Source: Escallonia rubra
Taxonomy: Eukaryota > Streptophyta > Magnoliopsida > Escalloniales > Escalloniaceae
NCBI GenBank assembly: GCA_033065855.1
Contig: JAVXUO010002200.1
Location: 310,001-374,000 of the forward strand
Length of the DNA: 64,000 nt
Reading direction: 5' to 3'
The position numbers were made by a program, and so were the translations under genes. The notes beneath the pieces were generated by a model. The model was given only the letters and a program-made list of their open reading frames with translations. It did not search any database and was not told the origin of the DNA. This document shows positions 26,101-64,000 of the stretch, piece after piece (the first letter of the stretch is position 1; the number at the start of each line of letters is the position of its first letter).

Positions 26101-29100
26101 AATGCGGCCAGTTTTTGTGTGAAACAGCGGTAGGTGCAGAAAATGCAGAACATTGCATACTGGGGCTCACATCTCTACTAGGACTGGGAGTGATGTCATT
26201 GACCAATTTGGGAACTTTTCCTGATGCATGTAAGGGCCTAAACTCGCCAACTTTTCTCAGGCCAAGGATACTAGAATCAGCCAAATTGCATGGCTGAGTA
26301 TCTTTATCTGATAAGCTTTGTAAACCTGAAGCTTTTGGCTGCAGGTCATTATGTCATCAAGACAAGCCAACAAGAACGCATCATTTAGATGATTTTAAAA
26401 GCACAAAGTGAACAACAACATACGCGATTGACTGAATTTACCTGACTGAAAAACCCTAGTGATGGTGATGGCATTCTCAAACCTGATGGTTTCATCTGTT
26501 CAGATTTCGTATTCCCATGAACACTCTTGGTCTTCTGAGTAAAAGATGCTACAGGTAATGTGGATCCTTCTCTGCCTTCAGATGAATGCAATTGGGTAGA
26601 TGGAACTACATCACGATTTACCTCTATACCACTTCTAGTTTCTCTAAGCAGTAATGGTCGTGGATTGGTTGATATGTACGCTTCCACTGGCGAGTCGACC
26701 TGCACAAATGGAGTTAATTTGAAGCATACAACTAGTGCTTGATATATGAATGTAATTATTTCTAAAGATTACTCTAAAAAAGTTAGCTGAAAAGAAAAGT
26801 TTGAAAAAAAAAATAATAATTCCAAGTTGTTACCAGATTCCTTCGGGCCAGGTGAGCTGAAACTTTGGCAGGAGAAGGGAGGCAAGCAGCACCTTTTGCT
26901 TTCACTTCAGTTATTTTTACATTTTTATAGGAGCATTTCACTGCAACATTCTTTTGCATGTCAATTGCTGCATTATTAAATGGTCAATAAGATGTACGGA
27001 CAGAAAGTGAACTCTAATTTGTAAGCAAGGAAATTCAGTTCTTCAGAGATACTGAAATAGTTGAACCAAATTCAGTTCTAAACAGATATCATACTACCCT
27101 GTCAAAACACCTATTTAAATAATGCAGATGAAACTACTTGATTCAAAAGAGGCTCAATAAATACATAAGTAAATGAAAGAAAGTACCAGCTTTGTCAATC
27201 TGATTATGCTTCAAGTGGCTTGCACTATATATAGCACTCTTAGTAGTTGCCGGAAGCGAACATGGGCCTGGCCGGGAAACTGGTAGTTTTGGAATTTTTG
27301 ATTCCTTTGTTGCAGCTTTACAACTGTTTACATTAGGAGGCCTCCGTAAAGTAAAAAGAGTCAAGGCTATTACTCGTCAACTTATAATCCATGGATAAGG
27401 GCTGACTAAAGTGGAGCTCATGAACCTCTTTGAAATATAAAAAAAGGATATGATGACGGAGCCACAGGTTTTGGGCAGCCACCACCTCTAGACGCCATCC
27501 TGCTACCACCAGGGGTTGGAATAACTTTTCTTGTGGCCTGGGAACATGTTTGACAACACTAAGTTAGGCTGGACTTCTGAAAAAGAATTGACTACTTTGA
27601 AGTTTAGAACTTACCACAGAAGTTGGAGTGGAGCCATCATGAGCAGATGAATTATGCCCTGCCACTAAAGAACCACCCTTATCTCTGTTTTCACTTGAAG
27701 CAATATCAGAAACTTCTGTGGATGAGATTTCTCGAAATGCTCGCACATCTACATATTTAATTGTAGGCTTGGAATCACCAGAGAATACATTTCTTCCTTC
27801 TTCATTGATCACGGACAATGGCTCTCCACTTGACTTTCCAAAAGTTCCAGTAATCATAGATAATTCAAGGGGATCTAAAACACCTAAAGAACAAACGCAC
27901 GTGTCTCCCATATTTATGGACCAAGAACATATAAGATTAAAAAAATTATAATTATGCCAGAGAAAAAATTTTGAACCTTCATCAGTGAAAAAAGCTCTAT
28001 CCCAAGCTAAGCTTTTCCGCAGATTACATCCTCCGCCTTTCTTTCTTCTCTTCATTTGCAGTGGCTCCATACTTAACCTTGGCACTTCAATTTGGTTCGA
28101 ATTTATATTCTCCTTGTTACAGCTGCCTTTGGGGGACGAATAACTAGGTTTTGCTGTATCAATAATATCCTGCAGTCCATCTGCAAGTGCATCATCTACA
28201 TAAGTAAGAGGCTTAAATGAATATTTACATGTGTGAGTATGTTTGTCCGTCTGTGTACAGAAATATGTAGGTAAGTGTGTTGCTATGTTGTGTTTAACGA
28301 CCCGATCCACGACCCACCACAGGGTTGCCTCCCTCAAAGGGCTAGCCAAGTAGGTACTTCGAAGATCATATGCGAGGTCTCATAAGGGCAATCTCATAGT
28401 ATCCCACAGCCGATGTGGGATATCACAATCTCCCTTCCATATGCCTTAGCGTCCTCACTAAGGCTTGATCACACATAGCCCAGAATCTTCGTCTCTAGCC
28501 AATGTGGGATATACCTGGCTCACCCTTTGTTACCCCAACCATCCTCTTACCTGGGCTTGGCTTCGTCTCCCCCAACCATTGGCAACCCGACTGGATAGCT
28601 GAGCCCGAGCTTTCAACAACCTGGCTTTGATACCATCTGAGACGACCCGATTCACAGCCCCACCACAAAGCAATGCCTCCCTCAAAAGGGCTAGCCAAGT
28701 AGGTAATTCTAAGATCATAGGCATGGTCTTATAAGGGCAATCTCATATTATTCCACATCCAATGATATCACATTGTGGGTGTCATGTGTGTATGAGGTCA
28801 GGATGTCCTTTACCCAGATCACCAGGGTGATGGCACAGATAGCCTCGATTTACCTCAACTAACTCGACTACCCAAGTACATTCTTATAGGTTAAAATTCA
28901 TTTACAGACAACGTTTCTCTGAGGGCATCACTCTTGACTTATTCCCCTTCCTCTCCATAGTCGAATCTTAACCAAATATTCTCCCCATTCATGGCGTAAA
29001 GTGGCTAAATGTAATTTTAGACACCACACATTAAAGAACAACAAACAACTTCTTGAAGTTACTTATTCAAATTAAACAAAAATGGACACAAAAGAAAATA

Positions 29101-44087: not shown

Positions 44088-45086
44088 TTTGTAACAAAAG
44101 ATATTTGAATTGTCTCATATGAACATGATATGTTATTATATGTTTATGAAAATGCCTACATTCATAAAGTAAAAAAGCCCAAGTTTTTATGTGTGACTGC
44201 TTGGCTTGGGCCGTTTACATGGGAGGCAAGCTAAAGGTTTGGTAGAATTTTCTGTTAACCATACATATGAATTTCAACCCAACTTTAACCTTGAGTTGAC
44301 CAAGATTGACCGGATGCACCACATGTCATAATTTAATAGGTGCATAGTCCAAATTTTACTATATCAGTATCTAACAAGCAAGTTCCAAGTTCGAATAAAG
44401 CAACATTTGTCGTTATGCAAGGCTCACATTTTCAACATCCCCATGTAAATCATGAAAGATCCTTGATGATGACATGACGAGAGCTTTATGCCTGACAAGT
44501 TTTCATGACCTTAGAACCTAAAGAAACTCCTCTCTTCACAAAAAAATAAAAACAAGAAAGAAGGATGAGTAACATTTAGATCGCACAAATCTTGCATTCC
44601 TAGTTAACTCATGCCTGCCCCACGATATTGCATGTATGTTTTACATACACCTCAAAAACTTAAAACCTTTCACTAATCCATTACAATCTTCAATTTGGTT
44701 ACCTATCATGGAGCAAGTTTCTTCCTCTTTCTTCAGCACTTAAGTCATCGACATTTAGCCCCCTTCTAGTTGCACAATTCTAATACCAATGCAAAAGGCA
44801 AATTAAGTGCCTCCCAAGCTACTACGGCCGCCACCTACTTCAGAATTTGGTTAGCTTTAATTCCTTCCGACATACCAACATAAAAAATCCCTTGCTACCA
44901 CAATAACTAAGTCAACCAAATGCATTGTATTCTTTGGAGGGAAAATTAGCTTTTGACCACTTGTACTATACCTTATGTAGGTGATTTCCCCCTTCACTTT
45001 ATAATGATGCACTAAACCCCTTTACAGTTACAATAAGACTGCACCTTTGACATAAATTGTTACTTTTAATAGAAAGTTAAAGTCAT
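44088..45086. other. AT-rich intergenic DNA
   Basis: I see no gene. Part of this stretch (44940-45080) reads like the arm of another transposon (TTTTGACCACTTGTACTATACC), but I found no matching end. Confidence 0.4.
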
Positions 45087-47768
45087 GCAAAATTGCACTT
45101 AACCCTCTTAGATTTACATCATCTACCCACTTAAAACCCTATGGTTTCAATTGGATCACATAATACCCTAACGTTTTTAATTGGTTCAAACTGAGTCCAA
45201 AATCGTATCTCTATTTAGAAAAAGATGGACGGTCATCCACCCCCTTCTCCCCACCACCCACACCTTGCACACACTCAGCCCCCCCCCCCCCCCCTCCCTC
45301 AAGATCTTCCTCGAGAACGTTTTTCGTGACTCTATCACCAACACTGACCACGTTAGAGGTGTCAAACGGGCTAAGGCCCATGGATCAGCCCAGAAAAAGC
45401 CTGGGCCAGCCCGACCCAAAGAGTGAACAGTGCAGGCCCAGTCCGAAGGGCCTAGGGCCTGGACTAGAGTTAGGCCCTTTTTTTCCCCCCAAAATGCCCT
45501 AGCCTGTTTTAAATCCAAGCACGGCCCATTATTCAGCCCGCAGCCTGGCCCTTTCAATATCCCCCCTTCTGCCAACGGCCATATTTTTTGAAAATTATAT
45601 TTTTACTCCTCCAATATATATGTAATGGCTAGTTTGAGGGGTAATTTTGTACAATCTTGTTCCAGCAACTATCTTATGCACTTTTATATATTTGTCCTCC
45701 AACAACTAACAACTAATTTTTAGAGGTTTTTTGGTTTTTTGTGAGGTTCGAAAAATCTGGATTTGATTCCTTCTTCTTCACATTATTTAAACCAATTAAC
45801 TACTCTCTTTTATCTACATTCTCAAGCTTTGTTGTGCATTCTTCTTTGTTACTAGATATTAACCCTCTCAGTATCATAATTACAAGTCAATAGATTTTGG
45901 CTAAACATTTGTTACTTACTTTTATTTGTTACTTACTTGTTATTTAGTACTTTTACTCTTTAACTATTTAATTAGTCTTATCAGTTTTTATTTTTATTTT
46001 TTATCTTTCAAATATTTTAAAAAAATATCTCTACTTCAAAAGGATCAAAATCATGTAGCCAAAAATGTTGACCACCACGAACACCACTATGTGAAAAGTG
46101 AGCACCATAATATCAAGAGCAAGCACTAGTCGGTATAGACATGCAAAATTCTTTTTGGTTTTTAACCAAAAATTTCCTAATTTTCAATACATCATAGATT
46201 CACACCATTTTAGTCAAGAATGTAGCTCAGTTGGCAACACTAATAGTCCAATGCACAATTTTCACCCGATGAGTGGTTGTGGAGAGGAAGGACCGAGCAA
46301 TCTTACCTCAAGTCTACCAGAAGCCCAAAAGGCAGATAAAAAGCTCAAGCTAAATGTTTGGAGCATTTTATAAGAGTTATGCTTCATGGTGTACCCAAAG
46401 TTCAATGTAAGTATTGTTTAAAACATTTTACTTGTGGCAGTGGTAATTCACATCTTAATTGAATTTCCAACAACGTACATCTACACAAGGCCGTGTTGCT
46501 GAGATCAACACGCAACTATCTTTTGACGGTAAATTGTTTATTTACAATCAGCGACAACAAAGAGACGTCTTTACTGAATTTACTGTGCACAAAGGAAAGA
46601 ACCTTTTAAGTTTACTTACAATGAAAAGTATACCATATATATGAATAATTACATACAACCTTTGTATAAAAAGGTTCATTGAAATACTACAAGGCCTTAA
46701 TTGATTAATTTGAAAATTTTGATGTTAAAGTTAGTCTTACGTCTGATGTTTGAAGATCTTCTTATATTATGCTTAATTATTCTTGTTTGACGGCACATTG
46801 GATTAATTATGATTGGTTATGCATAAGACAATCATTACTTTTGAAATCTTTCCATATTCACATGATGCATCACACGTTGCTGAAATTATACTCCAAGCAG
46901 GTAACACCTTTAAAATAGATGATAAGATAATGAATGTTAGTTTTGATTAAACTGACAATTTTCTATCCGTACCCGCGGGTCGATTTGTACCCGGCCAAAA
47001 ATCTCGGGTACGGGTAAATATATGTGCTACCCGCTGAAATTGGACCCGTACCCGAACCGAACCGTAATTTTCGGATCGGTCCAGGTCGGGTTACGGGTTA
47101 CCCACGATTTACCCATTTTTCAAACTATATATAGAACCGTTTGTGCCCTAAGCCTCTCACTTTCATTTTTCTTCACCCTTCTTCTCACTCCTTATACCGC
47201 CGTTGCCGCCCGTTCTTCTTTGTCGCCCCCCGTCGCCCCTCTCACTCGAGATCTACCACCGGTGACCCTTTACTCCGTCTTCGCCCTCACTCTCAGCCGC
47301 CCTCGTCGTCAATCCTTTACCGCAGCCACGGATCGTGTAAGTCACTGACTGTCGCCCTTCGTCTCTCCGTCAGCGATGGTCACTTCGTCGTCAATCTTCT
47401 CTCCGTCAACACTAGATCTACTGCTGACTGTCGCCAGTCGCCACAAGATCTATTGATCTTGTATTTTTTTTTTTTTGGTTTTATTTTCTTTATTCAAGAA
47501 TCCTGATCTTGTAGTTTTTTTTTTTGTTTTTTTTTGTTTCTTCAAGAATCTTGATCTTGATTTTATGGAGATTGTGTAATAAATGTTAATGGAGATCGAT
47601 TATTGTGATTGGTAATGTTGATCTACGATTGATAGATCTACTGATCATGAGTTGGGTTCTATTTTGTATATTCAAGAGTCCTGATCTTGATTTAATGTTG
47701 CTGTGTAATAGATCTTAATGGAGATTGATTATTGTAGTAATTGGTAATGTTGAAGATCTGATTGTGTT

Positions 47769-47891
47769 GGATTAAATGCACAGGAAACCCCATACTTTGG
47801 GGTCATTTACACGGAACACCCCATGATTTGAATTTTGACCCAAAACACCCCAAACTTCCAATTCTGGTGCACGTAGCACCATTTGACGGAT
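47769..47891. repeat. MULE left terminal inverted repeat
   Basis: This 123-bp repeat matches 54567-54689 inverted with no difference that I can see. It probably holds the transposase-binding site and the promoter of the GRF gene, which starts 243 bp further in. Confidence 0.93.
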
Positions 47892-48134
47892 TTTACTCCT
47901 TTCCTTGGGATGTCTGTTAGAAGCCAAAAGATACAAAGGTAACTTCCTCCATAAATCCAACATGGCAGCCACGTCAATTCCCTCCATAACTCTCCCTCAT
48001 ATCTGAGAACCCCACTTTCTTTTCCCGCCAAAACCATATATATATATATATACACACATCTTCACAATCCACACTGAATTAGGGTTTATGAAATTGGGGA
48101 TATCTTAAATTGAATTTATTAGACTCAATTGGAG

Positions 48135-48674
48135 ATGAGCTCGAGTAGTAATTCACACAACAATCAATACGCTGTTAGATGCCACTGTGGAGTGTCTCGG
48201 GTCATGCACTCTTGGACATCGGACAATCCTGGAAAAAGGTTTGCAGGTTGTGGAAATTATAAGGTAAGTAATTCATGTGGCCATTTTGAGTGGGTTGATC
48301 CTGAGGTTTGTGATCGTGGCAAAGTATTTGGCAGGATGATATTGAAGAAAAATAAAGAATTGCGTGAAAGGTATGAAGAAGAGGAGAAGCAAATTGGGTT
48401 GCTACTGAAGGTTAACGAAGAAGGGGAAAAAAGGGTTCACGGTGTGATGAAGATGAATGAAATATTGATTGAGAAGAATGAAGAGCTTAGGGCAGAGATT
48501 CAGATGTTGAAGGCCAAGAAAGAAGCTACTGAAGGGCAGCTGAAAATCAAGGGCAAACAGCTCTTAGTATGTTGGCTGTCAATTCTGTTACTCACTTTAG
48601 CCATATGGTTAGGATCAAGGAATTACACACTGAATTCCAAGGACAATGAAAGATTGTTCTTAAACCATGTTTAG
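48135..48674 (+). CDS. MULE accessory protein: GRF zinc finger, coiled coil and membrane segment
   Basis: The 179-aa product starts at ATG 48135, the first ATG after a leader of about 240 bp from the TIR. Residues about 15-55 form a GRF-type zinc finger (CHCG..., then GKRFAGCGNY, CGHFEW and a following Cys), a fold that binds single-stranded nucleic acid in other proteins. Residues about 70-140 are Lys/Glu-rich and read as a coiled coil. Residues about 145-162 (VCWLSILLLTLAIWLG) form a single predicted transmembrane helix. Small plant GRF proteins of this layout are common and often sit inside transposons. A role in transposition is inferred only from position. It is convergent with the transposase gene and uninterrupted. 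Confidence 0.85.
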   Translation: MSSSSNSHNNQYAVRCHCGVSRVMHSWTSDNPGKRFAGCGNYKVSNSCGHFEWVDPEVCDRGKVFGRMILKKNKELRERYEEEEKQIGLLLKVNEEGEKRVHGVMKMNEILIEKNEELRAEIQMLKAKKEATEGQLKIKGKQLLVCWLSILLLTLAIWLGSRNYTLNSKDNERLFLNHV

Positions 48675-49650
48675 AAAAAGTGCTTGGAACCTTGTTTAGT
48701 TTGTTTTCCGTATGTGTATTTGTTTCTATGAATGAGCAATGTAGTGCTCTGTTTTGTTTGAGGTTTGTGCATTGAGTTTTAGGTCATATATATAAATTTA
48801 GATGTGTAATTTTATCATGGCAAATTGTGCTTTTATTGTTGCTCAATTAATTCACAAACAAATAAATAATAGGGCTTTGTATTATGCCATTAAAACAGCA
48901 AAAGAAATGAAATTGGACTGCATTATGCCATCAAAACAGCAAAAGAAAATGCAATTGGACTGCATTAAACATCAACAAAACAATTGGGCTCTGCAGTATG
49001 CCATTAAAACAGCAAAAAAAATGCAATTGAACTGCATTATGCCATCAACTGTAAAAAAACAAGTTGAACTCCATCAAAATAGAAAACTGCATTATGCCAT
49101 CAAATGCATTATGCTGTTTTGATGCCACTGCATTATAGCATCAAAATTGCAGAACAACATATCAGATTCCCACCAAGGCAATAGAGCTATACTAATGAAC
49201 CATTCCCACCAAAGCAATAGAGCCATACTAATGAACCATTCCCACCAAAGCAATAGAGCCATACTAATGAACCATTCCCCCTTGCACAACATATCACAAT
49301 CCCATCAAAATAGCAGAACAACATATGCCCATGTGTGCATTAGTCATACTAATTAACCATCCCATCAAAATAGGCAAACTGCAAGTGTGCATTAAAATAC
49401 TTCTTCATATATCAATGAACTTCAATAGGTTTACACTGTCAATAACAAGAGCCTGAATTGGTGCTTTAATTAAGGGCAATACAATTCTAATTGTGCCATA
49501 TACAAAAGGCTCCACAATTCTACTTCAGCCATGTACAAAAGGATTCCACAGTAGTTAGGCCATATACAAAAGGCTCCACAATTCTAGTTCAGTCATATAC
49601 AAAAGTACCCACAATAGTTAGGCCATATACAAAGGCGCCACAATTATAAT
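48675..49650. repeat. MULE intergenic region with three short tandem-repeat families
   Basis: Between the convergent genes lie CATTATGCCATCAAAACAGCAAAA-like units (about 48885-49110). These are followed by three copies of a 37-bp unit containing CACCAA.GCAATAGAGC.ATACTAATGAAC (about 49170-49275). A third family of GGCCATATACAAAAGGCTCCACAATTCTA-like units spaced about 60 bp apart lies at about 49495-49700 and overlaps the 3' end of the transposase gene. Open frames across these are repeat artefacts. The poly(A) sites of both genes probably lie here. Confidence 0.75.
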
Positions 49651-52600
49651 TCAGCCATATACAAAAAGACTCCACAATACTATACAAAAGGACTCCACAA
49701 TTCTATTTTTTTTAGACACTTGATCCTTCTTGAGCTGCTGAGCCCTTTGAAGAGATGATAGGGAAGCTGAAGACTTTCCTTTCCAACTAGCATTTGTACT
49801 TTGAACAATCATTCCTCCTACTCTTGCTACTTGGGGATCAACATGTGGTTTTCTTGGATGCACAACACTATTGAGGAAGTGTGTATTCATGCTTGATGAA
49901 TCACTAGCCTGGTTTATGAAGACAAGATATTACAATAAGTTTGATGCAATAAATAAGACTATAACAATAAGCATTAAAAGCAATATTTTTTACAGTCACC
50001 TTGTCATGTGCATGAATAAATCCAGGTGTTGGAATCATTGTTTCAGCTGCACTCTCTTGTGTTGATAGGTATGGTTGTGAACTCTCTTGAGTTGGAACTG
50101 GTGTTGGAGCTGCATTATCTTGACTCATTTCCACCTGATGAGCCATGTTCCTGATACTAACTTCAGTAGCCACCATATAACTCCTCTTTAGCTGCAAATC
50201 AATGGTTTAAGTTACCATGGGTTCACAAAATTGAGTAAGTAGCCATCAAGCCAAGTTGCTTATTGGAAGTTTAGGCATCCTTTGAGGTTGGACAGGAGGC
50301 ATGTGAGGAATAAATAAGGGTGTCCTTGGTTGTGCTGTAGGTTGCTGACAATAATAAATGAACATAAGTAATGAGTTTCCCATTAAAAAAAAACTAACAT
50401 TGTAACTTAGTAAGCATAATTCAACTTACATTTGGCATTGCACCTCTGTTATTTGCACTTGCAGCAGCCCTGTTACTTCCCCTTGCAACACCCCTGGTAC
50501 TCCCCCTTGCAGCACCCCTGTTATTTGCACTTGCAACACCCATGTTACTTCCTATTGCAGCACCCCTGTTACTTCCCCTTGCAACACCCCTGGTACTCCC
50601 CCTTGCAGCACCCCTGTTATTTGCACTTGCAACACCCATGTTACTTCCTATTGCAGCACCCCTGTTACTTCCCCTTGCAACACCCCTGGTACTCCCCCTT
50701 GCAGCACCCCTGTTATTTGCACTTGCAACACCCATGTTACTTCCTATTGCAGCACCCCTGTTACTTCCCCTTGCAACACCCCTGGTACTCCCCCTTGCAG
50801 CACCCCTGTTATTTGCACTTGCAACACCCCTGTTACTTCCTATTGCAGCACCCTGTTACTTCCCCTTGTAGCATCCCTGTTACTTCCCCTTGCAGCACCC
50901 ATGTTATTTGCACTTGCAACACCCCTGGTACTCCCCCTTGCAACACCCATGTTACTTCCCCTTGCAGCATCCCTGTTACTTCCCCTTGCAGCACCTCTGT
51001 TATTTCCACTTGTAGCACCTATGTTCTTTCCCCTATGAGCACCCTTATTGTTGCCCCTTGCAGCACCCCTGTCATTCCCCCTTGCTACACCCCTTGTTGT
51101 AGTTTCACCACCAGCCCCACCACTATCACCACCTCCAACACCACCACCAGCCCCAACACTGTCAGCCCCAGCCCCACCAGGCCCAACACCTGCACCACCA
51201 GACCCAACACTGTCACCACCATCAACTGCTCCTTCAAAGCCTTTGCATGTTCTTTTGTTATGACCTGATTTATGGCACTTGGTGCATCTAATGCCTGTTA
51301 GGCCTCTTCTCAACTTATTCTCAACAGCTATGGGGGGTGCATTTTCATCTGGTTTTCTCACTCTAGACTTCTTAGGTCTGCCAGGTTGTGGATGAGGAAT
51401 TGGAGGTAAGATGGGTGTCTTACCTGTCTTAGGCCACATGTCAGAGCCATTCATGGGGTAGATCATGTGCTCATACCCCCTCATAAATGTCTCTTTCCTA
51501 TAACAGTCAGCCACAAATAGGTCTGGGTCCAGCCCCTTGTAGTACATTGCAGCAATTGCATGTTTACATGGAATACCAGTCAAATCCCATTTTCTACATC
51601 TACAGCTATGTGTTTCCAAGTCTACTGTGAACTGTCCACCATAAGTCATGGAAACTTGATATGTTCCCCTCCCAGACCATGTTGCATTTCCTTGGGCAGC
51701 TTCTATCTTGTTCTTCTCTAGCATAGCTTCAATTCTAGGGCAGAATGGTCTTTGGTGCAATATTTTCCTCATTTTTTCCCTTTCTTTAGTAAGTCTATTC
51801 ATTAGATAATTTCTTATCACCTCAAGACATGTAATGATTGGTTTGTCTCTTGCCCCTAGAATTCTCCCATTAAAGCTCTCACATGGATTATTAGACAAAA
51901 TGTCACACTTGGGATAAGTTCTAAAGTGTGACCTAGACCAGTGACAAGCAGCCTTGTCTGACAACCACTCAAAGGCATTCTTAGATGTCTCTCTCATTTT
52001 AGCCATACACCTGTCAAACTGCTCTGGATAAGTAGCTTTTGCTGCATCCCAAAAAAGATCCTTGAATGTCAAACCCCTAAAACCTGCAGTCTTGTAATTC
52101 TCAAACATGTGCTTTGCACAATTCCTTTGTTCTGCATTTGGCACCACCCTCTGAAGTGCATTAAGTAAACCCTTCTGTTTATCTGACAAAAATGTCCACC
52201 CACTGTCATTAATTCTCAAGTCCTCAACTAAAAGCTCTAGAAACCAAGTCCATGTACTGGTAGATTCTACTTCCACCATTGCATATGCTACTGGAAACAT
52301 ACCATTATTTGCATCCACTCTAAGTATTTGTCCCTCACAAACTCCTTTAAGGAAACACCCATCTAAGCCAATCACTGGTCTACACTGCTCTAAAAACCCT
52401 TTTTTAAGTCCCTCCAGGCAAATATAGATCCTCTCAAACATAGGTTGATCCCCACTGTTATCAACTTGTATCTCAACAGTGGTATCAGGATTTGATCTCT
52501 TCAATTCCTCAGCATAGTCCCACAACTGAGAGAATTGTTCTTCATAATCCCCATAAATCAAAGATAGAGCCCTCTTTCTAGCCCTGTATGCCTGCCATTT

Positions 52601-54360
52601 AGAAACCTCTACCACAAAGTCCTGCTCCACTGTGGATTTAAAAGCTTGCACTGGCCATGTTGGGTTACTCCTCCAATTATTCTTGTACTGGTTGCCCAAA
52701 AAAACAGAGGATGCATGCTTCACATTATGACTTCTTGGGCAAGTATGAATTGGGTTCAACCTCTTAATCTGAAAACTGCTCTCACCATGCTTAAGGGATG
52801 CATATACTTCCCATGTACATCCCCCTTCTGCCCTATTATCTTTTGCTTTCTCTGGTTGACAAACTGCTAACACCCTTCTTGACTCAGATGTCTTGAACGT
52901 AATATGTTGTTTACCATGCTTGATTGTATGTACCTTAATGGCCTCTTTGAATTGATTAGCATCCCTAAAAACCATACCAACCTCAAACTTAATATCCTTC
53001 ATTGTATCATTATCTCTAAAACTCAAACAACTTCTTTCAAAGTTGGGAAACTCTGGCTTTCTGGTTTTCCTAGTTACCCTTTCATCATCTGAGTCTTCAC
53101 AACTTCTCATGTCATCACTGTCACACAAATCATCCTCACTCTCACCACCCTGCAGCTCTGTTGTGGCAGCAGGCTCTGTTGAAGATGGCCCTGCAACACC
53201 AGCCTTTGTGGCAGGTTGCTCTGTGGCAGCAGAGTCTGTAGCAGCAGGCTCTGTAGTAACAGCCACAGAGGCATGTGCCTCTGTGGCATCATCCTCAGAA
53301 ACTTCATCCATCTGATACTCACTATCACAAAAAGAACCATCACTTTCTTCATCTCCAAGATTTACCCCACCAGACTCATTCAAACCTTCCATATTCATTG
53401 CACCTTCGGCCAAATTGTTTTCATCTTCTTTATTATGTTCATTTTCATCACCATTCAAGTCATCCATGTCAAACAGGTCTGCATTTGTTTGGTCAACAAC
53501 ACCTGGCTGAGTTTGCTCAACAACATCTGGCTGAGTTTGCTCAACAACATCTGGCTGAGTTTGCTCAACATTAGGTTCACTACTAGGTGGTGGCAGGGCA
53601 CAAAGCCCTCCAGGGTTTATCAGAAAAAACTCAGCAACTCTATTAGGACCCATTAGCTCACAGACAGTCATTACATTCAGGTCACTTCCTACATGCACTA
53701 ACCCATCATCCAAACTACAGCCAGGGGCTATGTAAAGGAAAACAGTAGACTCCTCTGGATACCCTAATTTTGCTCTTATCTTACTCAATTCCAACATCCC
53801 TACCCTGTCCTCATCAATATTGTCAAAATAACTGACTTTCCCCCCAACATAAGCCTTACAACCAACATTACGTAATTGCCCTCCATGGTGCAATTTCAGA
53901 GTAAAATATGTGTCCTTTGGATCTACAAAATAAATAATTCAAACATGCTTAGAGTATGGGATACTACAAAACCCTAATTTTAGCCCCAAAACTGATCAAA
54001 GCCCGTAAAAAAATTATCTTCGTCAATGTTCTTATACATAATTGAGACATGCATGTCAAGCTTGATACATTACTGTACGACATGCATGAAAAAAAAAAGA
54101 CAAAGCTCTGTATGGCATAAACTCTAAACCAATCACCAAAACCCATTATCAAACCATACAGACAGATCGCAATAAACCCTAAAACACAAATACATTGCGA
54201 AAGTAACCCTAGAATTAGCATTATGCCCAAAATTTTCAACATAAAAACAAAAAATGGTCTTCGTGTAAACTATTGCAGTATGTACGGAGTACTTACCGTA
54301 TTCCGGCGTGTAGCAATCTTCACAGAACGCCTCATCCCTCATCTCGAAACCTTCTCTCAT
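49651..54360 (-). CDS. MULE transposase (MURA-like), multi-exon
   Basis: Exon 1 is 54360-54297 and exon 2 runs from 53922; phases agree. Exon 2 encodes about 1,020 aa. An acidic, repeat-bearing N-terminal region (EQTQPDVV copies and Ala/Thr/Glu-rich stretches) is followed by a MULE DDE core with GLDGCFLKG and FLSDKQKGLLNAL carrying catalytic-type Asp residues. A SWIM zinc finger CRCRKWDLTGIPCKHA and a CCHC knuckle CTKCHKSGHNKRTC come next, then a Gly/Arg/Asn-rich tail. In this copy a one-base C deficit near 50850 shifts frame and stops it at 50840. The original frame continues to a donor at 50430. Further exons are likely at 50344-about 50255, 50195-about 49985 and 49904-49651 (borders uncertain). 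The core is intact, so the tail truncation may be tolerated. Confidence 0.88.
50430..51060 (-). repeat. Coding minisatellite in the transposase tail (27-bp units in 108-bp blocks)
   Basis: Nine-residue units of the type GSNRGAARG vary in a fixed order, and four of them form a 108-bp higher-order block. The block repeats nearly perfectly at about 50473, 50581 and 50689 and then becomes irregular to about 51060. Near 50850 one unit has CCC where the others have CCCC, which breaks the frame. Confidence 0.88.
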
Positions 54361-54566
54361 CTTTTTTCCTCTGATCTTCGATCAATGTCCACGAATGAGG
54401 GTGATGAACGTTGTGACTGTTTGATTATTGTGTGAGAAAGATACAGAGGGGGGATAGAGGGGTCAAACTCCAACATTCGGGTGATGTGGCTGCCAACAAG
54501 GACATTTTAATGAAGTGCCCATTTTGACCTCAAGATTATAACAGCCGTCTTCATATTATGAATTTC

Positions 54567-54689
54567 ATCCGTCAAATGGTGCTACGTGCACCAGAATTGG
54601 AAGTTTGGGGTGTTTTGGGTCAAAATTCAAATCATGGGGTGTTCCGTGTAAATGACCCCAAAGTATGGGGTTTCCTGTGCATTTAATCC
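54567..54689. repeat. MULE right terminal inverted repeat
   Basis: This 123-bp repeat is the inverted match of 47769-47891. The transposase start codon (54358-54360) lies 207 bp inside it, so the TIR likely supplies the promoter. Confidence 0.93.
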
Positions 54690-55750
54690 GATTGTGTTTT
54701 GTGTAATAAAAGAAGAAAGAAAAGGGAAAAAATCATTTAAGAAGGAAGGAATATTTGATTAAAAAAATTATAAAAATTAATGTTTTACCCTCGGGTAATA
54801 CCCTACCCGCCTGGGTAGGGTACGGATCCAGGAAAAGTCTAACAGAGAAAAATTGGGTAAAATTTACCCAACCCGTTTTTATCCGAACCCGATCAGATTT
54901 TACCCGTACCTGGCGGGTATACCCGTTTGCCAGGTCTAGTTTTGATAATGCTTTCAGTAATAATATTGCTGTTGAATTATTAAAGAAGAATCTCAAACTT
55001 GTAATATCATTTTTTTATATTCAATGTGTTTGTCATATAACTAATTTAGTTGTTCAAGATGATTTAGCTGCTGCAGGACTAAATATTTCAAAAAAATTGT
55101 TATGGTTATGTCTGTTAATTCTTCGGGCCTAAAAATACAAGAATTTAAAGGTTTGTGTCGTTCAATAGAATTTGTCTCGTAAAAGACCTATTGCAGATGT
55201 TCACCACATGCTGAATTCTACATATCATATGTTTTTACATGTTATGGTGTACAAACAAGTTTATATTCATTGCCTACTAACCAAGTTTGCACAAGGCTTG
55301 CCAACTCCGGATGAATGCCAGTTAGTAACATACATGGTTAAAATTTTTGGAGGCTTTTCATATATCTATTGTTCTATTGTCTGGTATGTACTATCTCGCA
55401 TTTTCCTTCGTTATACCAGATATACTACAAAGGGCACAAGTTTTAAATAGATTGAGATATATGAAAATGTTTAATGAGATAGTGAAAAAAATGGACATCA
55501 AATTTAATAAAAATTGGAAGGAGTTGCCGGTTATTTTTGCTATTGCCATTGTTTTGGATCCTAGATTCAAGTTGTATAGTGTAAGCTATTCAACTACAAA
55601 AATAGGTATAAAAATGGACTATGGGCCAACTGCGGCAGACACGATTACAAGTTCCTTGAGTACGATATTTGAACGACTTTATAACCATTATCAGAACTCC
55701 GCTGACGTGCGCATGCATGCGGTAAATATATTATGGATCGTTTCTTAAAT

Positions 55751-56455
55751 GTAATGAAATGTAGTGGCAAAACAAGCGACGGTAGAAGAAACTTCCCCTT
55801 TTTCTCTTTTAATAAATTGATTTATATGCAAACACTAATCGCTATTCTTTATTGTCAATAGATGTGTAGAAGGAATTTGATTTATTTAATTTTTAGAAAC
55901 AAAATAAAAGGTTTAATGTGTTTTATTCCTAATTGTCCATGATGTACTACCGATGCAAGCCTCTACAGTTGCTTTAAAGTCATGTTTTTTAGCGAACGGG
56001 AGGACATTCGATGACAAGAAGAGTTATCTTAGTCCCTAATCATTGGAGTTATGTATTTGTTGGAAGAATTATCTTGATATAAAATCCAGGAGCAAAATAA
56101 ACTAATAGATGACAGGAAGGGCAGCCATGACAGCATCAAAGATCTTCCAAATGATTACGTAATTTCGTTTTTTTTTCTTTTCTCAACTTTTTAGAATAAA
56201 ATTTTCTCAAAATTTAGTTTACTTTGTTGCCGTAGATATTTTTTAAACAAATTAATTATATTTAAAGTAAAAAATACATATAAACATGCTTCACTTTTTT
56301 GAACAATTAATTTTTTAATATAAAAACATAGGTAACTTCACATGTTTATTTACAAGCAGCCATTACCAAGCCTGAATTAAAGGAGGGTCTGTAAACAGAT
56401 TTATCATAAGTTTAAGTTTATTATAAAATTAAAATAAATTGAAAAAATAAATAAT
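55751..56455. other. 3' part of the outer hAT element, non-coding
   Basis: This is AT-rich sequence after the transposase remnant and before the GGCCC-rich subterminal region. No gene is visible. Confidence 0.5.
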
Positions 56456-56699
56456 TTTAGGCCGGCCCGGGCCTGGCCCAAGCCCGACCATGAACTTTGG
56501 GCCAAGGGCTTGCACTAGGGCTGGGCCCTTATATTTTTTAGGGAGCCCGGTCATGCCTGACCATTTTCCTCCAGGCTCAAGCCCGACTTATTGACACCTC
56601 TAGACCATGCATGTTGTAAGACAATGACGGCCATGGACGTGGTCTACGCGCTCAAGAGGTAGGGCAAGACCTCTATGGCTTCGATGGTCAGATAGATAG

Positions 56700-57400
56700 A
56701 TTGCTCTGTTAAGGTTTATGGTTGATCTATCAATAATAACTAATAACTGTAGATCTTAGGCTTGAAAGTGTTATTAGTAATGTTGTTAGCTTGAAATTTC
56801 AATCCACAATCTGTATTTGAAGCAATAAAAGCTTGCCATCTTTTAATTTTAGGTTGCTATATATTGGGTATTTGACTAAGTTTGGTTGACGAGATACTGG
56901 AGGAATGTAAAACTTGGTGGGGGGCAGACTGCGTGTGTGGGTGTAAAATGTTTTTGCGAATGGTGGGTGATTAGGAGCATGGTAGGGGGGGAGGGGGGGA
57001 TACCACTGTGTGTTGGTGTGTGCAGATGTTGTTGGGTGATAGGGGTGGTGCCAAGGTGTGGGTGGTAGAGGAAAGTGGTGGGTGTGTTGGTGACTTTTGA
57101 GAGGGAGGGGGGTGCAATGTTGTTGTATGTGGCTGGGTGTTTCTATGTGCGTGTGTAGACGGGGTTGTGTGTAGGTAGGTGATGAGGATGATTGAGGGAT
57201 GTGGGTGTTCTCTCTTTGTGTGTGTATGCGTGCGTGCATGTGCATGTGTGTTGGTGGATGTGTGTTGGTGGATGATTGGGGGTACATGTCGTGATGGAGT
57301 GTGTGCATGTTGGTGGATGATGGGTGCTGGCAACTTTCGTGGGGTGTGGGTGTTTCTATTCGTGTTTGTTTTGAGAAAAAAAAAGGTATTTGCCCCTCCA
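56700..57400. repeat. TG/GGT-rich cargo of the outer element
   Basis: Positions 56900-57370 are dominated by TG, GGTG and GTGTG runs, similar in character to 5380-5900. Long open frames on both strands are compositional artefacts. Confidence 0.7.
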
Positions 57401-57505
57401 TGTAGAAGCAATTTCAAATGTTAGGGTGTTATGTGATGCAATTGAAACTATAGAGTTTTAAGTGAGAAAACGAATTTACACTTAGGGAGTTAAGTGCAAT
57501 TTACC

Positions 57506-58092
57506 TTTTATTGATGTTTCTGCCTTTCTCTCATATTTTGTTGTCATGACTTTACGCTCATCTCATACCATACATGCCCCCCCGCCCCCAAAGCCACCAA
57601 CAAATGCAACCATCTCACCACCACCAAAACTATGACTACCCAAACCCACACAACCAACAACACACCCAAACCTTCAATCCCTTCGACCGCCTCGAACACC
57701 CGACACACAACCTTGGTCCCGGCTCTGCACAATCAGTGCTTCTTAGAGTGAGATCTTCGCACCACAACTCCTCGTTCGACTTGTACGAGCAGTCTAGGTT
57801 TTCGAACCCGCGCAACTTCTTCAAAATGGTCATGAAATTTATGTAGTTGGCAGAGGACGTGGAGCCACTATTTTCCTCTTCCTTCTCTCTGTGTAATTTA
57901 GTGTGTGTGGGGGTTGGGGGGTGGGGGGTGAAATTTGGTGATGTTGGGAATCAAAAAGCAGTTGGGGAAAAGTACATTTATAGCATTTCCAATCCATATT
58001 TAAAGGTTATTAGGATATACCCTAGTTCCTGGTGTTAGCATCTATAGTGGTATGAGATGTTTGAATTAGGAGTTTAAGAGATCTTGGTGGCA
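57506..58092. other. Intergenic DNA with an unidentified codon-like segment
   Basis: The plus-strand frame 57574-57846 changes from His/Gln/Pro-rich to LLRVRSSHHNSSFDLYEQSR-type sequence and could be a captured exon. I recognise no family. G-rich simple sequence follows at 57900-57930. Positions 58093-58097 (AGATC) are the left target duplication of the Copia element. Confidence 0.4.
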
Positions 58093-58097
58093 AGATC

Positions 58098-58352
58098 TGT
58101 AAAGAACAAATGTTTGATGTTTCCCTTGATTTGTTCAAGATTCCTTTTACAATAATATATACAAAAGGCTCCACGTGAGGTGAGTGAACTGTGGAGAGAT
58201 ACATGGACTTTGGTTACATTTGAAAACATTTGAATTGTGAAATCTAAATCCAAAGAGATTGAGGCAGTAGCACAACTATGTGGATAAGTCAGCTTCACGG
58301 TTGGAGTGTTACTTGGCAAGGTGATTGCTTGCATGGCAGGATATTGCTAACG
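58098..58352 (-). repeat. Copia 3' LTR
   Basis: This 255-bp repeat ends in TTTACA. Its first bases are CGTTAGC where the 5' LTR has TGTTGGC, so the canonical TG start is mutated. Confidence 0.95.
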
Positions 58353-61300
58353 CGCCCCCGCAAGATCGAGGCGCCATTGGTGACTCCGATCTTGGATTTA
58401 AGACGATGAAGTTGCGGACGAGAAATCGGCTTCATAAGGATGTCAGCGAGTTGATCTTTGGAGTTGACATGATGGACACGGAGTGAGCCATTGCTGACAC
58501 ATTCTCGAACAAAGTGGTAATCCAGAGCGATATGTTTCATTCGGGAGTGGAAGACAGGATTTGCATAGAGATATGTAGCTCCAGTGTTGTCGCAAAAGAG
58601 AGCAGGGGTTTTGGAAGGTGTAACGCCAAGCTCATGCAAAAGATTGGTGACCCATAGTATTTCAGCGGTAGAGTTGGCAATGGCTTTGTATTCAGCTTCA
58701 GAGGATGATCGAGAGACTGTTTTTTGTCGAGTTGATTTCCAGGAAATTGGATTAGAGCCAAGGTAGAGAATATAGCCAGTGGTGGAGCGGCCATTGTCAT
58801 GGTCACCACCCCAGTCAGAGTCACTAAAGGCCTGAAGTGTGAGAGGGATGCCGCGACGGAGATAGAGGCCATGATGGATGGTTGCCTTTAGATAACGGAG
58901 AACACGTTTGAGAGCTGTCCAGTGACGTTCAGTGGGAGAGTGCATGAATTGAGAGAGACGATTGACCGCAAAACAGACATCTGGCCTAGTGAGAGAGAGG
59001 TATTGGAGGGCACCGACCAATTTTCGATATGGTGTCGGATCAACATGTGAGGAGCCATCATGGATAGTGAAAGAAGAGGAGGTGCACATGGGGGTGTGGA
59101 CCTCTTTGGCACCTGCCATGGAGAATGTATGCAAGAGCTCATTAATGTGACGATGTTGGGAAAGGAATAAGCCATCGTTGGTGTTTATGACTTCGACACC
59201 CAAAAATTGGTGAAGTGAGCCGAGATCCTTAAGAGAGAATCGGTGATCAAGAGTTTTGACAAACGAGTCCAGGAATACAGAGTTGTTGCCCGTGAGAATA
59301 ATATCATCAACATATAGTAGAAAATATGCAGTGATAGCATCCTTGTTGTAGATGAATTTCGGCAACTGATTTAGTGAAACCGGCTTGTAAAAGATAGCCC
59401 TTAAGTTCTTGATACCAAGCACGTGGTGCTTGCTTCAGTCCATAGATGGCTTTACGGAGCTTGCAAACATGGTGAGGTAAGGAGGAATGGAGAAATCCCG
59501 GAGGTTGAGCCATGTAAACATCGTCATGTAGAGTGCCGTGCAGGAAGGCATTGTTGATATCAAGTTGTCGAAGTGGCCAGTTGTGGGATAGTGCAAGACA
59601 GAGAACAACACGAATGGTGGCGGGTTTTGTGACCGGACTGAAAGTGTCAGCATAATCAAGTCTCGGACGTTGGTGAAATCCTTTCGCCACGAGGCGAGCT
59701 TTGTATTTGGCAATGGAACCGTCGGGATGACGCTTGATGCGGAAAATCCATTTGCAACCTACAATATTTTGATCGGATTTCGGAACAAGATCCCAAGTAC
59801 CATTTCGGAGTAGAGCATCAAATTCTTCGGACATGGCATTACGCCAATGAGGATCATTTAGAGCTTGAGAGAGACAAGTGGGTTCAAGGGCGAGCGGCAG
59901 AGGATGAGTCGTAGTGTGATTAATGAATTTTGGGTTGAAATATTTTGGGTTTGGGTGTCGGTTTCGTGTGGGACGTGAGTTGGATAAATGTGTAGAAGTG
60001 GGAATAGTGAGAGTAGAGGGAGAAGACGATGCAGGCGTGGAAGGAGTGGCTGATGTGCAAGGAGGGCGTGTATTTGGTAAAGTGGAAATGGGTAAGGGAG
60101 ATAAAGATAAAGATAAAGAAGGAGAAGCTTGTGGAGAGGATTGTGGCAGATTCGGTGGGGAATTTTGTGGGAATTCGGAAGAGGTGGGATTTGTTTGATT
60201 TGAGGGGGATGTGGACAAGTTTGAAAGTGGCAGATTGGATGATGACAAGTTTGAATTTGGTAGATTGGGTGAGGACAAATTGGAAGGAGATAAAGTGGTT
60301 GGTTGGATAAAGAAGGAGCTTGAATTTGAATTCAAATCCGGTGAGTGATTGTTGACAGAATGGTTGGCCAGTGAAGTAGGAGCTGGTGCGTGGAAGTCTA
60401 GCTCGTGCAGAACCAAGCCTTGCGTAGGAAGTAATTGATGTTTACGGCCACCACCTTGCATGGGAAAAATATGCTCAACAAATTTCATGTGACGAGAAAT
60501 ATATAGTTTTTCGGAAACGGGATCGAAACATTTGTATGCTGCTTGGGTAGTGGAATATCCAAGAAAAATACATGGAGCGGAGCGAGGTTGTAGTTTGGAG
60601 GAAGTGTATGGACGGAGCCAAGGGTAACAGAGGCAACCAAAAATTTTGAGACGAGTGTAGTTGGGTTGCCGGTGATGTAGCATTTCAAAAGGAGACTTGA
60701 ACCGGAGAACGACAGTGGGAAGGCGGTTGATGAGATAAACGGCAGTGAGAAATGCGTGTGGCCAAAATTTGAGCGGAAGAGAGGCAGTTTGAAGAAGTGT
60801 TTTTCCTGTTTCAACTATGTGCCGATGACGACGTTCGGACGTACCATTATGTTCGGGTGTGTGGGGTGGAGTGGTGAAATGAGAGATGCCATTGATAGCA
60901 AGAATTTTGTTTAGAGATTCATATTCACCACCATTGTCAGAGTAAATGGACATTATTGGTAGTTGGAAGAATTTTTCAACGAGGGCTTTGAATTGAGGAA
61001 ATAATGTATGAACGTCTGATTTTCGTCGCATAGGATATAGCCAAATATATTTTGTGTAATGATCAACGAAAATAAGATAGTAGCGAAAACGTTCATATGA
61101 AGGTTCAGTTGGTCCCCAAACATCTGTGTAAATTAATTGTAATGGCTGAGAGCTAGTGAGAGAATTGGTGCGAAAAGGTAACTTATGACTTTTATTACAA
61201 TCGCAAAAGTTACAATGAAGGGAGTTGCGATAAGATAAATGAGAACCTAATTTTTGAGACTCAAGGACTGAACGTAGAACACGAAGTGATGGGTGACCAA

Positions 61301-62731
61301 GGCGCTGATGCCAGTCAGTGAAATTTGATTTGGAGATAGAATGTGCTTGTGGAGCAGGTAGAGATGGTAGGCAGTAAACATCATTTGCATTCTTCCCGCG
61401 AAGAAGTGGCGCCCCCGTGCTCAGATCCTTCACCAAAAAATAAGAAGGAAAAAATTCAAGTGAGACACGGTTGGAATGACAGAATTTTGCAACAGAAATA
61501 AGATTCTGATTAATAGAAGGAGCACATAAAACATCATTTAAGGCAAAAGTAGCGTGAGGGGTACGCAATTTTGCATGTCCAATATGTGATATGCGCAAAC
61601 CTGAACCATGACTGATGTGAATTTCATCGGGACCGCCATAGTCCGAATAGGAATGAAGGTTAGTAGTATCACTGGTGACATGATGGGATGCGCCAGTGTC
61701 AAACAACCAAGGTGGGGAGGTGGGACGGTTAAGGGAGGTGACATTGACTGTTGGGGTGGCAAGTTGAGGTGATTGCACTGGGTGAATGGTTTGAACGTCA
61801 TTTTCTCGGAGAAAGCGAGCAAGCTTGCGACATTCATTTGTGGCGTGCCCAGCGCGGTCACAGAAGCGACAATAAAGAGAAGAGCGAGGTATAGATGCAC
61901 GGTGTTGGGTGTTTGGGCGTGATCAATTTTACGGTTGGTAAGATGGGTTGTGGGACGACTAGGGAAGGACTCGTGGCTGCGAGGAGTGAAATTTTCAGAG
62001 TGGCGCCCAGAGGAGGCGTTCCCATGAGGTGAAGAGTGCTGTGACTGGAGTCGATGTTGGCGGTGAGTGTAGTTTGCAGTGGCGATGGAAAGTGAAGGGG
62101 TAAGATCATCCTTCTTGAGTTGGAGTTCATAATCTCCAAGCTTGTCATAAAGTTCGTCAAAAGAGATGGGTGTGTCCCGAGCGCGGAGAGCAGCAGCAAT
62201 TTCCTTAAACTCAGGGCCTATGCCGACAAGAATATATAGGACAAGATCATCTTCAGAGATAGGATTGTCGACGAGAGCAAGATCATCAGCGATAGCCCGC
62301 ATCTGTTGTAGATATTCTGGAATAGAACGGTTGCCGCGAGGATTGTTAAGCAGTCGTTCTTTGAGAGACATGACTCGCGAACGAGATTTGTTTGCAAAGA
62401 GAATGATGAGACGTTCCCATGCTTCCTTCGAGGAGGAAACGGTGGAGATGTGAGGCTGGATAGTATCAATACAACTGCCAAGCATGGCATTGAGTACGAG
62501 TTGATCTTGGCGATGCCAGATGACATAGTCCGGATTTGGAATTTTTTCTGTGGAAGTAGAGGACGCAGGAATTGTTTGAGGTGGTGGGGAAATGGAACCA
62601 TCAATGAAACCCAGCAAATTGTGGCCAATTAGACCTAAGTAAAGTTGAGTTCTCCACACTGTGAAGTTGGTATATGTGAATTTAGTGGGAAGGTGTGAGG
62701 GTGCATTGAAGAGAATTATAGGGTTTGCCAT
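58295..62731 (-). pseudogene. Copia gag-pol polyprotein with two frameshifts
   Basis: Gag starts at 62731 ([12 protein letters not shown]) with a retrotransposon Gag segment. A CCHC knuckle [14 protein letters not shown] lies in a different frame from the gag start, because the frame shifts near 61925. Next come the protease motif [11 protein letters not shown] (about 61700), the GAG-pre-integrase WHQRLGHPS, and the integrase (TDVWGP, SDNGGEY, TPEHNG.SER). The RT follows, from [18 protein letters not shown] to [12 protein letters not shown] second break near 59360 separates the RT N-terminal part from the YVDD part. RNase H follows, with DSDWGGD, TTGY and [11 protein letters not shown], and ends inside the 3' LTR at 58295. 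Copia elements normally use one continuous frame, so this copy is probably non-autonomous. Confidence 0.92.
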
Positions 62732-62777
62732 GGATCGAAAAAATAGAGCTTTAACTCAAGGAGGGCTTCTGATACCA

Positions 62778-63032
62778 TGTAAAGAACAAATGTTTGTTGT
62801 TTCCCTTGATTTGTTCAAGATTCCTTTTACAATAATATATACAGAAGGCTCCACGTGAGGTGAGTGAACTGTGGAGAGATACATGGACTTTGGTTACATT
62901 TGAAAACATTTGAATTGTGAAATCTAAATCCAAAGAGATTGAGGCAGTAGCACAACTATGTGGATAAGTCAGCTTCACGGTTGGAGTGTTACTTGGCAAG
63001 GTGATTGCTTGCATGGCAGGATATTGCCAACA
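62778..63032 (-). repeat. Copia 5' LTR
   Basis: This 255-bp repeat begins TGTTGGC and ends TTTACA, directly followed by the primer-binding site. It has the promoter role by position. Confidence 0.95.
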
Positions 63033-63037
63033 AGATC

Positions 63038-64000
63038 TAGCTTTTGGGGGGTGGGGGATTTGAGCTAATCAGGGCCCAACGGATGGTGGTGATGACAACA
63101 GTGGTGGCAATGACGACAGTGTTAGGCAATCCTTGGAAGTTTGTGGTGGCGGTAAAATCTGGCAAGGGGTAGAAATTGGAAGATATGCAAATAATTATGG
63201 GGTTACTTTCGTCACTCAATTTAATCGGCGACTATTTTCTCCAAGGTGCAGTATTTTCCTAACCGGAAGGGCTTTAGTGCATCATTTTGAAAGTGAAGGA
63301 GAAAAATTCGCACCCCAGATACAGACTTACAGTACGGGGGATCAAAAAGCTGATTCCCCCTTCTTTGAACAAGGCTGCGTCGAAATCAACTTTCGTTACT
63401 CCAGTTGGTGGAGAAGCCCGATCGCAGCATACGAGAGGGACTTTCTTTGGGTGATCGCAAACTTCCTAAGCTTTCTTAAACTGGTCCAGCACACGAAAAG
63501 CCATTGTGTCAATTGTGCATAATACTGTTCCTGTTATTCCAAGGGCACCAACGTAACATCATAAGAAGTCGAAATCATCAGAGACTTGTCCCTACACTTT
63601 CAGCCACCATTCATACACTGAACCTTGGCAAATCCAGCTTGGATGCTTCATACGAGATTAGAGTCTTTCATATATGGTACACGGCCTCATCTTCATTCCC
63701 ACATATGGCGTAAATTTTCCATTTAAATCTTCCTCTTGCAGAAGTTTGAACCCGCTGGTAACGCATTAAGGCATGCTCCCCATCCCAAAATTCCAAACTG
63801 TCCGGTACAGTCCTATTCCCGAGGAAACTGTCACTTCTGTAACCCACTCGAGCTACTTTCCTCCGCATTGCTGTTGCTAATCTTCAGTTCGGGCACGGGT
63901 CAATTGTTCATTAGCACTAAGCTGGAGTGTTTTCGGCATTGACTGAATCGTCAACGCGTACGCTCAGGGCAGCCATCTATCATCGCAGATCTCAATCATT
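63038..64000. other. Unassigned sequence at the window edge
   Basis: From about 63180 the composition becomes more balanced than the AT-rich flanks. A plus-strand frame (63133-63522) reads plausibly (ALVHHFESEGEKF..., SSWWRSPIAAYERDFLW) and is followed by frames at 63504-63713 and 63736-63942. I recognise no domain. It could be part of a gene continuing past the window, an organelle-derived insertion or decayed sequence. Confidence 0.35.

Follow-up and report, generated by a model that had tools for sequence, protein, structure and literature searches.

A 64,000-nt stretch of the Escallonia rubra genome (contig JAVXUO010002200.1, positions 310,001–374,000; hereafter the window) contains a real nest of transposons. 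Its main stack has five levels: E0 encloses E1, E1 encloses hAT1, hAT1 encloses hAT2, and hAT2 encloses a Mutator-like element (MULE), with a Copia retrotransposon lying to the side within E0 as a sixth element (Table 1). We consider it about 90% probable that this stack arose by successive insertions and that its innermost MULE belongs to a lineage with a second gene, convergent with the transposase gene, for a GRF zinc-ribbon protein that most likely assists in mobility or in regulating it. As an example of layered insertion the nest is ordinary and well resolved; the novelty is the second gene of the core MULE. A first-pass annotation of the window had described four levels. All four are present, and the count falls short by one, since E0 encloses them between target 9-mers that agree at 8/9 positions.

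The order of the insertions follows from the geometry of the nest alone, and the three inner levels pass an empty-site test at paralogous sites in the host's own assembly (566,129,122 bases in 3,222 contigs), which served for all genome searches. (i) The MULE is flanked by a perfect target site duplication (TSD), GATTGTGTT (9/9 at 47760–47768 and 54690–54698). A combined genome search with hAT2 and the terminal inverted repeat (TIR) of the MULE gave 1279 candidates, the best 40 of which comprise the window, 28 hAT2-only loci and 11 MULE-TIR-only loci. In all seven hAT2 paralogs fetched, of the 28 among the matches listed, the MULE site is empty and is crossed with a single (G/A)ATTGTGTT or, in two of the seven, with a form two bases shorter. 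(ii) hAT2, flanked by GTTTTGAT (8/8 at 46940–46947 and 54939–54946), is absent from all nine hAT1 paralogs fetched, with a junction gap of 0. These nine were drawn from 39 loci, 74–82% identical, which together with the window make up the best 40 of 1031 candidates found with a 401-bp hAT1 query. (iii) hAT1 ends in identical 12-mers, TAGAGGTGTCAA (12/12), between the target 8-mers GACCACGT and GACCATGC (6/8), and its site is spanned by alignments to 9/9 host H4 genes, ungapped there in the four that were printed base by base. The host genes read GAGCACGC where the window has these two 8-mers, which fits a single target GACCACGC if each copy has since changed at one position. At fixed ends, the chance of an exact 8-mer is 2e-5 and that of an exact 9-mer is 5e-6. 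That hAT elements insert at cuts staggered by 8 bp and MULEs at cuts staggered by 9 bp is established in the pertinent passages of PMC3310237 and PMC10741241. The first-pass annotation had given the same coordinates and duplications for these three elements, the same nesting order and the same hAT and MULE identities, all of which we find as claimed, and the in silico excision that it proposed restores continuity at every inner level (7/7, 9/9 and 9/9 paralogous sites).

The MULE combines long TIRs (123/123) and a TSD of 9 bp, the usual length within the 7–12 bp of Mutator-like elements, with a MULE transposase bearing a SWIM zinc finger. hAT1 combines an 8-bp TSD with hAT transposase domains (PF14372 at 2.7e-13, above the cut-off; PF05699 at 5.4e-4 and 20.1 bits, just under the cut-off of 21.4), and the piece of hAT1 to the right of hAT2 found no match in the PDB. 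hAT2 contains no recognized open reading frame (ORF) of ≥100 aa, its interior not having been put to a family search. In the window copy, the left end of hAT2 is decayed and the terminal 12-mers agree at 5/12 positions ungapped; the short TIRs expected beside an 8-bp TSD are present in paralogs L006 and L007, which have TAGACCTGGCAA at both ends. The paralogs L006 and L007 also have perfect TSDs (8/8), and L004 and L008 have TSDs of 7/8. Those of L006 and L007, which lie 13 kb apart on C2325, are identical, so that the two may be one insertion duplicated, probably by segmental duplication.

E1 carries a fragment of a host H4 gene between TIRs that are 79.6% identical over 98 bp, a similarity reached by 0/500 shuffles. 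H4 residues 59–76 are found on the left of hAT1, as a match that is weak by itself (E 0.03–0.05), and residues 75–98 on its right (E about 1e-5), and the overlap of the two pieces is the target 8-mer of hAT1. The H4-side genome search returned ten matches, the window and nine host genes with full H4 frames, and the DNA alignment is strong. Seven of the alignments start at 45297 and two at 45298, and the best extends into the 3′ flank to ~56892; these edges point to capture of the H4 codons from about 58 on together with 3′ DNA. The TIRs of E1 belong to a family: 37 of the 40 scored matches, two of which are its own ends, stop at 57502–57505, and all three relatives fetched have TSDs (9/9, 8/8 and 8/9; best of a ±4 scan). 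E1 thus shares with Pack-MULEs a captured host fragment, and lacks their 9–11 bp TSD.

E0 has both features, a TSD in this range and a captured fragment between MULE-type TIRs. The similarity of its TIRs (111/141 identical) was reached by 0/500 shuffles, and its TSD was equalled by 14/2000 random site pairs with 7 × 7 offsets allowed. Within the TIRs, 44985–45060 matches 63231–63305 in inverted orientation, and the left TIR has six other genome matches, three of them starting at 44939–44940. The cargo derives from a D-3-phosphoglycerate dehydrogenase gene of chloroplast type, whose host frame on C1176 matches Pfam 2-Hacid_dh at 2.1e-30 and D-3-phosphoglycerate dehydrogenase in the PDB at 2.1e-60; ~280 bp of the host sequence are missing between the two pieces. 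The reverse transcriptase of the Copia element is split over two frames.

We propose that the stack was built by successive cut-and-paste insertions, in which an old Pack-MULE-like E0 with its dehydrogenase fragment would have come to hold the H4-carrying, MULE-type E1. hAT1 then entered the H4 fragment with an 8-bp duplication, the small non-autonomous hAT2 landed in the transposase motif of hAT1, separating its D codon from its N codon, and a recent MULE inserted into hAT2 with a 9-bp duplication, Copia having entered E0 separately. The insertions, their order and the duplications of hAT1, hAT2, the MULE, Copia and, at 8/9, E0 are demonstrated, as are the linkage and convergence of the second gene, whereas the way in which E1 came to lie in E0 and the role of the accessory protein are inferred.

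The first-pass annotation had read the relative age of the levels from TSDs that become cleaner and TIRs that become more similar with each inner level. This age signal is not clean. The ends of hAT1 agree at 12/12 positions and those of hAT2 at 5/12 ungapped, and the older, enclosing E0 (8/9) surpasses both E1 (2/9) and hAT1 (6/8) in its target sequences. We therefore rejected TIR and TSD decay, which is not monotonic, as an age scale. Identity to the nearest relatives found is a better independent signal and increases inward, from 81–82% for hAT1 (401-bp query) through up to 94% for hAT2 to 100% for the TIR and 98% for the transposase of the MULE. The one-sided 95% upper bound on the divergence of the MULE TIRs is 0.024. 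If about 1.3e-8 substitutions accumulate per site each year, the MULE may be younger than about 1 million years, although gene conversion between the TIRs could lower the divergence.

The second gene of the MULE encodes a protein of 179 residues in which a GRF zinc ribbon is followed by a long helix and a hydrophobic C-terminal segment (residues 143–161, Kyte–Doolittle 2.28). Two relatives of the window copy pass the PF06839 cut-off of 25.9, with 32.5 and 29.0. Structure prediction, for the sequence alone and with 10 sequences, gives the long helix with confidence and the zinc-ribbon part with low confidence; the best PDB match of the window protein has an E of 0.09. Diverged copies also have the zinc ribbon, the helix and the hydrophobic tail, and tails are seen by eye in L062, L067, L068, L069 and L070 as well. 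The 179 codons form an open frame in each of the 13 full-length close copies. The ratio of non-synonymous to synonymous substitution rates (dN/dS) of the window copy is 0.56 against L021, 0.43 against L018 and 0.155 against L036 (53% identity; dS saturated, 2.8); against L017 there are no synonymous changes. The gene presumably resembles plant genes named At4g04775-like. In L036 it is split by an intron, and the window family, which has no intron, keeps a GTAAGTAAT-like splice-donor stretch in frame (48240–48300), suggesting intron loss by DNA deletion.

We determined how often this gene accompanies the transposase by comparing genome searches with both. The search with the transposase core started from 1817 first-look candidates and gave 86 matches, which fall into 83 loci, some of them near contig ends; the GRF lists comprise the best 150 of 159 matches of the window protein and the best 150 of 156 matches of a diverged GRF protein. 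With a limit of 10 kb, and after rows repeating a locus had been removed by hand, at least 42 of the 83 transposase loci have a GRF locus nearby, 41 of them in convergent orientation, where 0.66 would be expected by chance. With the first GRF list alone, the count is at least 35/83, all 35 convergent, against 0.34 expected. Among the matches listed, the linked fraction depends on identity to the window transposase, with 10/12 at ≥90%, 19/23 at 60–90%, 4/5 at 50–60% and 9/43 at 40–50%. The sole non-convergent pair within 10 kb is on C1142; pairs beyond this limit include a convergent one on C2003, 17.9 kb apart, and one on C2973, 10.9 kb apart, that is not convergent. Conversely, five GRF loci for which no neighbouring transposase was listed, two of them of one family, were chosen by hand, and all five have a convergent transposase of 36–59% identity within 6 kb. 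The MULE TIR lies 331–406 bp upstream of the GRF gene in 13 of the 15 loci examined, with flanking 9-mers that differ except between L010 and L011, which indicates that the gene travels with the element. Mostly open transposases of ~48% identity with no GRF match within 10 kb, among the matches listed, occur on C1308, C2235, C2127 and other contigs.

Several observations weigh against our account, of the nest as well as of the second gene. No empty allele of E0, of E1 or of the whole nest was seen. The end similarity of hAT2 in a 60-bp comparison is no better than that of shuffled sequences (237/500 reach it), and in three of the seven hAT2 paralogs (L002, L003, L005) the scan found TSDs of only 5–6/8. 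E1 has no detectable TSD: its termini agree at 2/9 positions, the best 9-mer pair in a ±12 scan reaches 6/9, as do 279/300 random scans, and none was found at lengths 3–11. Age alone is a doubtful cause, since the older, enclosing E0 keeps 8/9, and E1 may not have inserted plainly. Insertion followed by deletion of flanking DNA may explain the finding, and so may uptake as filler by E0. To the latter, in which E1 never inserted and the H4 stretch with its inner TIRs joined E0 when this formed or was rearranged, we assign somewhat less than an even chance. It would account for the contrast between the duplications of E0 and E1 and for the start of E1 right where the similarity of the left TIR of E0 ends, and the relevant section of PMC3310237 describes MULEs that have additional TIRs in their interior. 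However, the ends of E1 belong to a family that moves with target duplications of its own, and its right end lies ~0.9 kb from that of E0 (Copia discounted), not in tandem. The nest as a whole is known from assembled sequence; that unrelated transposon pieces were wrongly joined is nevertheless extremely improbable, given exact duplications at termini common to paralogs and a contig of 537 kb. A further question is what inactivated hAT1, which the first-pass annotation attributed to insertion of hAT2 into the DN(A/S) motif of its transposase. The motif, S(F/L)DN.(S)NNN with variation among hAT1 copies, is indeed split between its D and N codons, at a site that we take to be near a catalytic Asp of hAT transposases, and in the short joined flanks the frame is open through HDASHVAEIILQAGNTFKIDDKIMNVSFD/NAFSNNIAVELLKK. 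That this insertion killed hAT1 is unlikely, however, as further stops and frame changes lie on both sides of hAT2 and 8/9 hAT1 paralogs without hAT2 have stops within the same 120-codon stretch.

For the second gene, the window copy scores below the PF06839 cut-off (21.8 bits, E 2.1e-4), the linkage is seen in one genome, and 34 of the 43 transposase loci of 40–50% identity have no GRF match among the matches listed. Because some of the linked copies are close relatives of one another, the 41 convergent pairs are not 41 independent events. The ratio pN/pS among close copies, 0.71, is a weak signal and would suit the accidental capture of a piece of a host gene, of the kind known from Pack-MULEs; so would the two captured fragments in the same nest and the uptake of genes by MULEs documented in parts of PMC3310237. 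Chance capture is nonetheless highly unlikely to explain a gene that holds the same convergent position beside transposases of about 36–100% identity, with a dN/dS of about 0.155 against a relative at 53% identity (dS saturated) and with zinc ribbon, helix and hydrophobic tail recurring in diverged copies. We favour a resident second gene, whose product would most likely act beside the transposase; the odds of a role in mobility of any kind are about even, and those of tethering as such are lower. Other GRF domains bind single-stranded DNA, and the protein would perhaps do the same or tether to a membrane. More specifically, and tentatively, this may be a large MULE lineage whose convergent second gene encodes a tail-anchored GRF protein, a mudrB counterpart that would tether the transposition machinery or a DNA intermediate to the nuclear envelope or endoplasmic reticulum.

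Table 1 Features of the nest in window coordinates; own lengths exclude inner elements
Feature	Position	Strand	Own length	Evidence
E0, outermost, Pack-MULE-like	44939–63360		about 1.06 kb (without nest and Copia)	TIRs 111/141
E0 left target 9-mer, TTCTTTGGA	44930–44938			8/9 against 63361–63369
E0 right target 9-mer, TTCTTTGAA	63361–63369			8/9 against left 9-mer
E0 cargo, D-3-phosphoglycerate dehydrogenase gene pieces	57670–57814, 57833–58001	−		79% and 74% to C1176:277884–278473
Young Copia long terminal repeat (LTR) retrotransposon inside E0	58098–63032	−		LTRs 251/254 identical, AGATC on both sides
E1, long-TIR element with H4 cargo	45087–57505		1162 bp	TIR 78/98
Captured H4 fragment on the left side of hAT1, starting abruptly	45297–45353	+		Alignments to host H4 genes
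Captured H4 C-terminal codons and 3′ flank, right of hAT1	56611–56892	+		Best host gene aligns to ~56892
hAT1, decayed transposase	45354–56602	+	3250 bp	TIR 12/12, TSD 6/8, PF14372
hAT2, non-autonomous	46948–54938		1061 bp	TSD 8/8, empty hAT1 paralogs
MULE, innermost	47769–54689		6921 bp	TIR 123/123, TSD, empty paralogs
Second MULE gene, for a GRF zinc-ribbon protein of 179 residues	48135–48674	+		PF06839
MURA-type transposase, long exon, 1017 codons	50840–53893	−		PF10551 1.6e-13, SWIM 8e-11, PF03108 4.6e-9
Putative first exon of transposase	54297–54360	−		Frame and splice signals

The C-terminal part of the MULE transposase contains a coding minisatellite of 24/96-bp units (50440–51094), within which the long frame ends. 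In the PDB, the MURA-type protein matched only Rab GTPases, weakly and over its SWIM region (E 0.005 at best), which we judged spurious, and a search of viral contigs for relatives of the GRF and MURA proteins found none. Outside the nest, two adjacent POT/PTR2 transporter genes (13682–21865), 67–76% alike in DNA, represent a local gene duplication, and a 355-codon ORF of internal repeats (71–76%) without a Pfam match occupies 25217–26284.

The nest illustrates that empty paralogs can prove an insertion order that TSD and TIR similarity only suggests. With its zinc ribbon and hydrophobic tail, the conserved second gene, which is widespread in one plant genome, provides a new handle on what MULEs need beyond the transposase. 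It would also mean that some plant GRF genes have to be renamed; if the more specific proposal is true, many plant genes annotated as GRF-type would be transposon genes. Among the open-licence full texts searched, none was found that connects GRF zinc fingers to MULEs.

Nested transposons several layers deep are very common in repeat-rich plants, according to the part of PMC10741241 that deals with them. The present nest likewise places elements inside elements and differs in degree, in that its main stack consists entirely of DNA transposons, three of its levels are proven by empty paralogs and two gene fragments are stacked in it. With the hAT superfamily (Ac/Tam3) it shares 8-bp duplications, short TIRs and, in hAT1, the hAT RNase-H domain, whereas hAT2 lacks a recognized transposase and its left end is decayed. 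E0 and E1 resemble Pack-MULEs in having MULE-type TIRs around host gene fragments, and with about 1.06 kb and 1.16 kb both fall within the length peak of 1000–1200 bp that the length data in PMC3310237 give for tomato Pack-MULEs; E1 differs by the absence of a target duplication. The window protein has the zinc-ribbon signature of GRF proteins (PF06839; NEIL3 in the PDB), at a score below the Pfam cut-off, and differs from them in its long helix and hydrophobic tail and in being transposon-borne. The closest parallel in gene content is MuDR of maize (mudrA and mudrB), which is likewise of autonomous type and has another gene besides that for the transposase. In the passages of PMC3276141 on mudrB, this is the known second gene; it is reported only in Zea and its function is given as unknown. 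The product of the second gene of the Escallonia MULE has a GRF zinc ribbon and a hydrophobic tail, which may set it apart from mudrB.

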